Positions 23,932 to 26,466 of a DNA stretch of 40,948 bases are shown one piece after another. The position numbers were made by a program, and so were the translations under genes. The stretch is taken from the IMG/VR virus record IMGVR_UViG_3300030107_002094, positions 1-40,948 of that record; one strand, given 5' to 3'. Positions within the stretch are counted from its first letter, which is position 1. Every line of letters begins with the position of its first letter. The notes below the pieces were generated by a model. That model made no database searches, had not been told where the DNA came from, and was given only the letters and a program-made list of their open reading frames with translations. The DNA comes from a virus.

Positions 23932-24129
23932 CTATCCCTGATAAGCCCCTTTTTCTTCTACTTTGTACGAAACATAGTCTTTTCCACCTTGAGAAGTCTT
24001 CTTCCATCCAGCAATCTTTACTTCTTTTCCGTTTATCTTACCTTGACCCGTGAAATCAGGTTGATTTTCACTCGTTTTGTTATCGTTGTCAAAAATAGAG
24101 AATGTGTTATCTTTTGGTTCAAATGGCAT
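23932..24129 (-). CDS. DUF736-like small protein, first gene of the late block (65 aa)
   Basis: A 65-residue protein: a short polar N-terminus with SIFDNDNKTSENQPDF, then GKINGKEVKIAGWKKTSQGG followed by KDYVSYKV. The NxxSIF...P-D-(F/Y)-TG...W-x-K-T...GK pattern is shared by small phage proteins related to DUF736 and is thought to be a compact beta fold. Function unknown; an OB-like nucleic-acid-binding role is sometimes suspected. It is the promoter-proximal gene of the minus-strand late block, with Shine-Dalgarno AGGAG 6 bases before the ATG, facing the divergent repeat region. Confidence 0.65.
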   Translation of the reverse strand: MPFEPKDNTFSIFDNDNKTSENQPDFTGQGKINGKEVKIAGWKKTSQGGKDYVSYKVEEKGAYQG

Positions 24130-24444: not shown

Positions 24445-24782
24445 TGCAAATAAACACCAAATGAACACTTTTTTGCACACAATACACACTTTTATACGCA
24501 CTTAAAAACTGTGCGAAAAATGGATGGGACGTACTTTACGTAAGCACACCCCCTTCCGTTCGCGTTCGGTCTCGGCGATTTTCGTTGAGTACGCGTTTCG
24601 CGTTCGGCTCCTCTTCGGTGGCGCGCAATCCTCTCTATATTGCCGGCTTTCAGTCTTATTTTTGCCTACGTTTGGACACTATAGCCGTCGGTTATACAAG
24701 TTTCGCTAGGTTTTGGCTAGTTTGTAGCGGTAAATTTGATGGTCGCCGACGGACAGAATCAGTCGGATTTAAAACCATAAAT

Positions 24783-24807
24783 ACACGCGAAGGGTGACAC
24801 CTTACGC
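24783..24807 (+). promoter_or_regulatory. Hairpin in leader of first plus-strand gene
   Basis: ACGCG-AAGG pairs with CCTT-A-CGCGT across GTGACA, with one bulge. It ends about 20 bases before the ATG of the 98-aa gene, close enough to affect its ribosome access. The Shine-Dalgarno there (GAGAG) is weak. Confidence 0.45.
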
Positions 24808-24825
24808 GTAGAAAGCGAGAGCAAA

Positions 24826-25122
24826 ATGAGTATATATATAATAACACCCAACACCGACGACGTTGTCAACAAGAACGACAAGAACACCCAGTACACCCTA
24901 AAGGGTGTAACCAACGACGTTCCAACACCCGCGGAATTTAGCGCGTTGGATGCCTTTGCTGACCACTTCGAGACCGAGGAAGGGCAAATTGGAGACTACG
25001 CACGAGACCACGCGATGAAAACCGCACGGTCTGAGCGCGAAGAGGCTTGGCTCAATGCCGACGACGGATTGAAGGCATTACTCGACGAGAATGGGCAACT
25101 TCCACCGGACGCGTTCATTTAG
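24826..25122 (+). CDS. Acidic protein of unknown function, first plus-strand gene (98 aa)
   Basis: A 98-residue acidic protein beginning MSIYIITPNTDDVVNKND, with a helical C-terminal half (AEFSALDAFADHFETEEGQI). No recognised domain. Base composition is clearly richer in G+C (many GACGAC and GCG codons) than the late genes. The coding sequence holds four ACACCC motifs and a perfect inverted repeat TACACCCT/AGGGTGTA at 24892-24909, so it doubles as regulatory sequence. Its place next to the control region suggests an early-expressed protein, perhaps a small host- or DNA-interacting factor. That is inference. Confidence 0.6.
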   Translation: MSIYIITPNTDDVVNKNDKNTQYTLKGVTNDVPTPAEFSALDAFADHFETEEGQIGDYARDHAMKTARSEREEAWLNADDGLKALLDENGQLPPDAFI

Positions 25123-25141
25123 CCCCAACGCGTTCTGATAC

Positions 25142-25301
25142 ACCGGCAAAGCCGGTCAAAGCCTAGAGCGGTTCTATCCCTTTGGGATAGCTAGGTTCGA
25201 TTCCTAGCTAGGCTTCTATACCCTCGGCATAGACCGAGAAACCTAAGGATCAACCTAAGAAGGTTAGCTAGGGAGTAATACGAAGTATTACACCCAGCTA
25301 A
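25142..25301 (+). ncRNA. Structured non-coding stretch with chained hairpins
   Basis: Between the 98-aa and 159-aa genes four structures follow each other. They are ACCGGC-AAA-GCCGGT (25142-25156), a tRNA-like fold (25159-25215), CTCGG-CATAGA-CCGAG (25223-25238), and a strong hairpin at 25264-25301 (TTAGCT, GGG, GTAATAC, loop GAA, GTATTAC, CCC, AGCTAA). AACCT/AGGTT at 25252-25265 competes with the base of the last hairpin. No coding frame fits. The stretch is probably part of a structured leader or a small RNA. Confidence 0.5.
25159..25215 (+). ncRNA. D-armless tRNA-like element
   Basis: AAGCCTAG (25159-25166) pairs with CTAGGCTT (25208-25215) like an acceptor stem. Inside lie a hairpin CTATC-CCTTTGG-GATAG (25174-25190) and a perfect T-arm CTAGG-TTCGATT-CCTAG (25191-25207) with the canonical TTCGA. 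The D-arm is absent (only AGCGGTT remains), there is no variable loop, no encoded CCA, and the putative TTT anticodon lacks U33. It is therefore more a tRNA mimic or tRNA remnant than a working tRNA. Confidence 0.5.
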
Positions 25302-25398
25302 GACAAAAAATTGTGCTAGAACACCCTATAACGACGGCATAGGACACCCTAGCAAGAACACCCAAAACCATAGCCGTCATAAATGGAGTAAACACCCT

Positions 25399-25878
25399 AT
25401 GAAGAACAACATAGAAGCAGTAATAACACCCAACATTAAAAGTGATAACCCCTCGGATTATCTTTACAATGTCAAAGAGAAACACCCTGTTGTTTCTGTC
25501 GAGATTACAAATGGAGACTATACATGGCAAAGAAAGCTCGTCGGCTTTAGGACAGACATGGAGACTAGCATGGCGCTGAAAAATAAGCTTAATGTCGACC
25601 TATTAAGAGAGATAGCAAGGACTAATTGGGAGAACCATTACGACGAGGAAACAGACCATTATATGACCGATATGGAAAGTAGACTATTCATTGAGAAGTC
25701 AGAATGGAAAGAACTAGGATGGCAAAGCACTAGCTTTGAATTAGAAGATGCAGAAATTGAATTTGTCCTCGGTAAATGGTTTATTAACAACAGGGATTTA
25801 AAACAACTGATAGTTTTAGATACATGGACTAAAGACCGACCATTTTTAAAATGGGTATATAACTATTACCGAGGCTAG
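25399..25878 (+). CDS. Hypothetical protein (159 aa)
   Basis: A 159-residue acidic protein with several Trp and Tyr residues (GDYTWQRKLVGF, RTNWENHYDEETDHYM, LGKWFINNRDLKQL). Mixed alpha/beta by appearance, with no signal peptide, membrane segment or recognised motif. The start ATG lies 10 bases after GGAG, and two ACACCC copies fall at or just after the start. The stop codon is inside a 12-bp hairpin. Its location after the structured stretch suggests it may be under control of that RNA. Function unknown. Confidence 0.7.
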   Translation: MKNNIEAVITPNIKSDNPSDYLYNVKEKHPVVSVEITNGDYTWQRKLVGFRTDMETSMALKNKLNVDLLREIARTNWENHYDEETDHYMTDMESRLFIEKSEWKELGWQSTSFELEDAEIEFVLGKWFINNRDLKQLIVLDTWTKDRPFLKWVYNYYRG

Positions 25879-26420: not shown

Positions 26421-26466
26421 TATTATTTCTAGCATAGGAATGTAAATGACTATGCTAGAAATAATA
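26421..26466 (+). terminator. Perfect 17-bp hairpin after the membrane-peptide gene
   Basis: TATTATTTCTAGCATAG (26421-26437) pairs perfectly with CTATGCTAGAAATAATA (26450-26466) across a 12-base loop, starting at the base after the stop codon. It has the same stem length and placement as the other stop-codon hairpins here. No U-tract. Confidence 0.65.

Follow-up and report, generated by a model that had tools for sequence, protein, structure and literature searches.

The sequence analyzed here (the window; 40,948 nt) is a record of an uncultured phage in which the large-terminase and portal genes lie on the minus strand and an early operon lies on the plus strand. The first gene of the operon, orf98, is separated from the next, orf159, by a 276-nt noncoding stretch that folds more stably than expected (z score, −4.15; none of 200 shuffled sequences folded as well). 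Our searches for isolated phage relatives found none near, and bacterial genome contigs, searched for hosts or prophages by DNA or with the ATPase profile, gave no matches. The features considered below are as follows.

23932 to 24129, minus strand: SSB-like gene (tblastn matches to phage single-strand DNA binding proteins), an anchor independent of the tRNA-like element
24826 to 25122, plus strand: orf98, the upstream gene, encoding a small acidic protein with orthologues in relatives
25139 to 25156, plus strand: hairpin ACCGGC-AAA-GCCGGT, just 5′ of the element, confined to the window's closest lineage
25159 to 25215, plus strand: the whole D-armless tRNA-like element (covariance model match of 83 bits; covariation among relatives; fold)
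25159 to 25166, plus strand: acceptor-like stem, 5′ strand, AAGCCTAG, forming 8 bp with 25208 to 25215, with both-side changes in 6 of 8 pairs
25167 to 25173, plus strand: 7-nt linker AGCGGTT replacing the D-arm, with GG at 25170 to 25171 in 26 of 26 relatives
25174 to 25190, plus strand: hairpin at the anticodon position, CTATCCC-TTT-GGGATAG, with a 7-bp stem that covaries and a UUU loop that varies
25191 to 25207, plus strand: T-arm CTAGG-TTCGATT-CCTAG, with a loop that reads TTCGANT in all 26 relatives and both-side changes in 4 of 5 stem pairs
25208 to 25215, plus strand: acceptor-like stem, 3′ strand, CTAGGCTT, in a covarying stem
25216, plus strand: unpaired C where a tRNA has its discriminator base, shared by all 26 relatives, with no CCA after it
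25271 to 25295, plus strand: hairpin GGG-A-GTAATAC-GAA-GTATTAC-A-CCC, with compensating variation seen by eye in many relatives
25315 to 25353, plus strand: hairpin GCTAG..CCTAT-AACGACGGC-ATAGG..CTAGC, kept in most relatives
25368 to 25388, plus strand: hairpin CCAT..GCCGTC..ATGG, which overlaps the orf159 ribosome-binding site (GGAG)
25399 to 25878, plus strand: orf159, the downstream gene; the gene at this place differs among relatives

Several other sequence features mark this region. The heptamer AACACCC occurs eight times in the window, always on the plus strand and always within 24843 to 25487 (645 bp); 2.3 copies are expected by chance in the whole window, and none of 100 shuffled sequences did as well. 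Most relatives show similar clustering, and the repeats run through the 276-nt leader. In early mRNA the heptamer may be bound by a protein or an sRNA. A second conserved noncoding stretch, between the SSB-like gene (minus strand) and orf98 (plus strand) at 24490 to 24825, contains the blocks AAAAAATGGATGGGACGTAC, CGTTGAGTACGCGTTTCGCGTT, and CCGTCGG..CCGACGG. RNAalifold found only weak common structure there, and the stretch may be promoter or operator DNA. Many relatives have the hairpin CGCGAAGGACACCCTTCGCG immediately 5′ of the orf98 ribosome-binding site (24796 to 24820 in the window). Further downstream, at 26421 to 26466, the two arms of a perfect 17-nt inverted repeat (TATTATTTCTAGCATAG / CTATGCTAGAAATAATA), separated by 12 nt, lie 5′ of the ATPase gene.

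An earlier note, made from the sequence of the window, had described a T-arm with TTCGA, an 8-bp acceptor-like stem, and an anticodon-like hairpin, joined without a D-arm or variable loop and lacking U33 and CCA. We found every one of these features in place, and the absences were borne out in the window. A 65-nt piece folded alone has a minimum free energy structure that is the same as its centroid and the same as the predicted tRNA-like fold (−24.2 kcal/mol; z score, −2.8); this fold also forms inside the 276-nt leader. A descriptor of the architecture matched only once in 14.1 Mb of shuffled sequence. ARAGORN identified no tRNA and no tmRNA in the window, and Rfam gave no matches at gathering scores, tmRNA models included.

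To collect relatives, we used ATPase homologues with 60 to 80% identity, which yielded 21 IMG/VR loci, and a scan for the exact T-arm, which yielded 29 contigs. The element was at the same place in every ATPase-homologue locus with the region intact. An initial alignment, of 15 distinct sequences, already showed compensation, with both-side changes in only three pairs; this alignment was biased, the T-arm having been fixed beforehand by the exact T-arm scan. Because of these two shortcomings, we chose anchors that are independent of the element: the downstream kissing-loop motif, the ATPase profile, and the upstream SSB-like gene (80 loci). A covariance model then recovered much more divergent copies, including those in L093 (AGCCTTAG..AGGGG-TTCGATT-CCCCT-CTAAGGCT), L092 (AACCTAG..GGCAAG-TTCGATT-CTTGCC-CTAGGTT), L059 (ACCACCA..TGGTGGT), and L140 (AACCCCAA..CTGGGGTT). 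A scan with the T-arm plus CCCTTTGGG also returned contigs outside the group, mostly from tRNA-bearing phages. Matches of 18 to 23 bits to model R1 in L143, L147, and L153 were rejected as being on the wrong strand; those in L147 and L153 are the opposite strand of a terminator hairpin.

The fold was kept in all 37 SSB-anchored loci whose identity to the respective query was 60% or more and whose sequence was long enough. In an alignment of 26 distinct sequences (A5), which was fitted to the covariance model and is thus biased towards the structure, 98.7% of cells are paired, and both-side changes occur in 15 of 18 pairs. The covariation score of A5 was 0.453, compared to 0.129 ± 0.015 for shuffled alignments, and none of 500 shuffles reached the observed value. 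When the partners were slid by 1 to 3 columns, paired cells fell to at most 62% and pairs with both-side changes to at most three. All of the stems covary, and they do so across five or more widely differing sequence classes. Given the covariation and its collapse on sliding the partners, we conclude that the tRNA-like fold is a conserved RNA structure. The strong covariation is the outcome of the check that the earlier note had proposed for the stems. An alternative pairing between AACCT and AGGTT that it had also suggested is unconserved and is absent in the closest relative, L027.

Among the 26 sequences, the T-loop TTCGANT, the linker GG, and the unpaired C after the acceptor are invariant, and the last T-stem pair (G-C) and the first acceptor pair (A-U) are also held in 26 of 26. 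The acceptor and T-stem together make 13 bp in most members (about 12 to 13 overall), usually as 8+5 but as 7+6 in L092. The length of the element is 54 to 64 nt. All stem sequences are free, as is the loop of the middle hairpin, which is UUU, UUC, AAA, UAAA, GUA, GUAA, GUC, UUAG, or GCUUAG. No member has an anticodon loop of 7 nt bearing U33 and a conserved anticodon, the loops being 3 to 6 nt long and variable in sequence; the window has C at the U33 position. No member has CCA after the element. Because elbow and acceptor features are held while the loop is free, the element is a mimic of the tRNA elbow and acceptor and not of the decoding end. The linker GG is a possible equivalent of G18-G19. 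The element also has the T-loop and the in-line acceptor helix of about 12 bp expected of an RNase P substrate, which are necessary but not sufficient for cleavage.

We compared the positions of the element and of transcription terminators. The distance from the orf98 stop codon to the element is 16 to 42 nt in 24 measurable loci (36 nt in the window). The distance from the element to the next gene is mostly 82 to 255 nt where an adjacent start was recognized (larger values reflect skipped short genes or missed starts), and the next gene varies. No intrinsic terminator (a GC-rich hairpin plus U-tract) was detected on the plus strand of the window between 24100 and 26600, and no U-tract terminator was detected at the element site in the 37 loci with at least 60% SSB identity; there is one weak terminator match in L140, upstream of the element. 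In contrast, all seven loci with 54 to 58% SSB identity and enough sequence (L143, L144, L145, L147, L151, L153, and L158) have a strong hairpin followed by a T run at the site and have no element. The equivalence of the site across this divide is argued from gene order and position; homology of orf98 with the small gene preceding the outgroup terminator was sought and not established. Since the element site corresponds to the outgroup terminator site and terminators are missing from it in the element-bearing clade, the element stands where relatives end the first early transcript.

We next compared the element with known RNAs. It is not recognized as a tRNA, D-armless or otherwise: ARAGORN found none, and with the Rfam tRNA-Sec model the window scored 17.3 bits against a gathering score of 47. 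With respect to tmRNA, which is defined by a tag reading frame and a full structure, ARAGORN and Rfam gave none. The tRNA-like domain of tmRNA has an acceptor and T-arm, a stemless D-loop, and a helix at the anticodon place. The phage element likewise combines an acceptor and T-arm with a helix at the anticodon place and no D-stem but, unlike tmRNA, has no mRNA-like domain and no CCA.

The best Rfam match was not a tRNA model but mascRNA-menRNA (RF01684), matched over its full length (positions 1 to 56 of 56) with scores of 37.3 bits for L093, 30.0 for L100, and 25.0 for the window, all below the gathering score of 42.5. Crystallography of mascRNA and menRNA shows an elbow built from the T stem-loop together with a pair of conserved guanines; there is a small D stem-loop, a longer anticodon stem, and no junction linkers, and the mascRNA loop at the anticodon place is compact, leaning to UUU (PMC11693755). 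In the MALAT1 and NEAT1 transcripts, the mimic is cut out on both sides by RNase P and RNase Z, which generates the 3′ end of the main RNA, and mascRNA is released as a stable RNA (PMC12941219). The phage element is of nearly equal length (54 to 64 nt, compared to 56 positions in RF01684). It shares the acceptor and T-arm, the GG set against the T-loop, the longer compact-loop stem at the anticodon place, and the lack of junction linkers and of an encoded CCA, and it lies directly 3′ of the RNA whose 3′ end would be formed. The anatomy thus agrees except for the D-stem: in most members, the phage linker is too short for even a small one. The phage acceptor is also usually 8 bp, and the phage element resides in phage mRNA, whereas mascRNA and menRNA derive from vertebrate lncRNAs. 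By sequence, the phage element can be described as the mascRNA design minus the D-stem. We regard the likeness as most likely convergent and do not count the element as a family member.

Two other systems offer parallels. In mitochondrial tRNA punctuation, RNase P and RNase Z excise tRNAs from between mRNAs; here too, a tRNA-shaped unit lies between two coding regions as a putative cut signal, although it is not a functional tRNA, it belongs to a phage early operon, and its cleavage is only predicted. Other non-tRNA substrates of bacterial RNase P include the phage M3 and C4 RNAs, operon mRNAs, and pre-tmRNA (PMC11143913). Like M3 and C4 RNAs and operon mRNAs, the element is a phage- or mRNA-borne structure, with RNase P cleavage only proposed in its case; what sets it apart is a complete T-arm and elbow, with covariation.

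We propose that the element is a tRNA-like cleavage signal at the end of orf98 that replaces a terminator. This is the best explanation of the data, and we hold it with even confidence. The acceptor stem and T-arm would stack as about 13 bp, the GG-bearing linker would dock the T-loop to give an L shape, and a structural hairpin would stand in for the anticodon arm. Host RNase P would read the elbow and cut the polycistronic early transcript 5′ of the acceptor, and RNase Z (probably) or exonucleases may trim 3′ of the element. The cut would give orf98 mRNA its 3′ end, in place of an intrinsic terminator of the outgroup type, and the rest of the operon would become a separately controlled downstream mRNA. 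Transcription, the L shape, recognition by the two enzymes, cleavage, and any consequence for expression are inferences. RNase P requires the T-loop, with the D-loop being dispensable; RNase Z acts as a clamp on the elbow, and CCA repels it (PMC4919913). RNase P contact or interference sites include G19, G53, and A58 (PMC11143913). The equivalents of these three nucleotides are invariant in the element, and its lack of CCA fits the aversion of RNase Z to CCA. Some features could weaken the case for cleavage: the stem stack is 13 bp, compared to 12 in tRNAs, and an A-U first pair, with no RCCA motif and no conserved N−1, is weak for an E. coli-type RNase P. We consider it plausible, with somewhat less than even confidence, that this phage clade swapped an intrinsic terminator for a mascRNA-like mimic, with host tRNA maturation enzymes forming the mRNA 3′ end.

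The main rival is that the structure stays uncut, as a protective or regulatory knob on the mRNA (an exonuclease block) or as a binding site for a host or phage protein that binds tRNA. The stable fold and the placement at the end of orf98, as for a terminator stem, suit this reading, and the element sequence is near-invariant within the main clade, which could reflect recognition by another protein. However, protection needs just a simple hairpin, and so detailed an elbow (TTCGANT plus GG) points to a reader of tRNA elbows; we consider an uncut structure unlikely. Less likely still is excision of the element to give a stable small RNA acting in trans, for example, as an upper-half tRNA decoy occupying tRNA-processing or -modifying enzymes. 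The confinement of the mimicry to the elbow and acceptor and the stability of freed mascRNA (PMC12941219) are consistent with such a role, but the element is a single copy within an mRNA, tied to the end of orf98, with no promoter or terminator of its own evident.

The earlier note had raised a structured leader controlling the next gene. In the form considered here, the element would be part of that gene's 5′ leader and would act with kissing-loop hairpins at the ribosome-binding site to control translation of the gene. The loop GACGGC (25333 to 25338) is complementary to GCCGTC (25373 to 25378), and the two hairpins are kept, with changed stems, as far as L093 and L100. A kissing interaction is plausible from the sequence; it is not proven by covariation because the hexamers are essentially invariant and thus uninformative. 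The conserved hairpins, with the possible kissing loop, overlap the orf159 GGAG, and AACACCC repeats occur throughout the leader. Nevertheless, the distance to orf98 is fixed while the next gene varies, and L030 and L140 carry the element without the kissing hairpins. A leader function is thus improbable for the tRNA-like part, whereas the hairpins around the orf159 ribosome-binding site may yet have such a role. The flanking hairpins reported in the earlier note are present in the window, but only some are conserved; that at 25271 to 25295 is missing in L013, L053, L056, and L065. The motif CCTATANNGACGGCATAG also occurs 5′ of the first early gene in distant contigs (L063, 8203 to 8220; L049, 432 to 449; L064; and L059), and GACGGC/GCCGTC may be a repeated regulatory site.

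That note had also suggested a tRNA mimic acting as a decoy. The mimicry stands for the elbow and acceptor, and engagement of tRNA-processing enzymes is, on present sequence evidence, most likely the function of the element. An anticodon-nuclease decoy is very improbable: the window does allow a 7-nt loop closed by 5 bp to be drawn, but the loop is conserved neither in sequence nor in length, and U33 is absent. A degenerate tRNA gene or chance fold, suggested by a T-arm identical to the tRNA consensus and the missing D-arm, has a negligible probability, being refuted by the covariation (15 of 18 pairs with compensatory changes), and it is further opposed by the presence of the element in 37 of 37 relatives and the rarity of descriptor matches in shuffled sequence.

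In the literature searched, we found no report of a tRNA-like element of this form that is conserved and covaries in phage mRNA. On our reading, the element would join the tRNA-like processing signals. The natural variants, including swapped stems, are a set with which to define the smallest elbow accepted by RNase P and RNase Z. If the proposal is correct, vertebrate lncRNAs arrived independently at the same minimal tRNA design, and 3′-end formation in MALAT1/NEAT1 would have a convergent counterpart in a bacterial virus. These phages would then punctuate their early transcripts by means of the host tRNA maturation machinery and not with a terminator.
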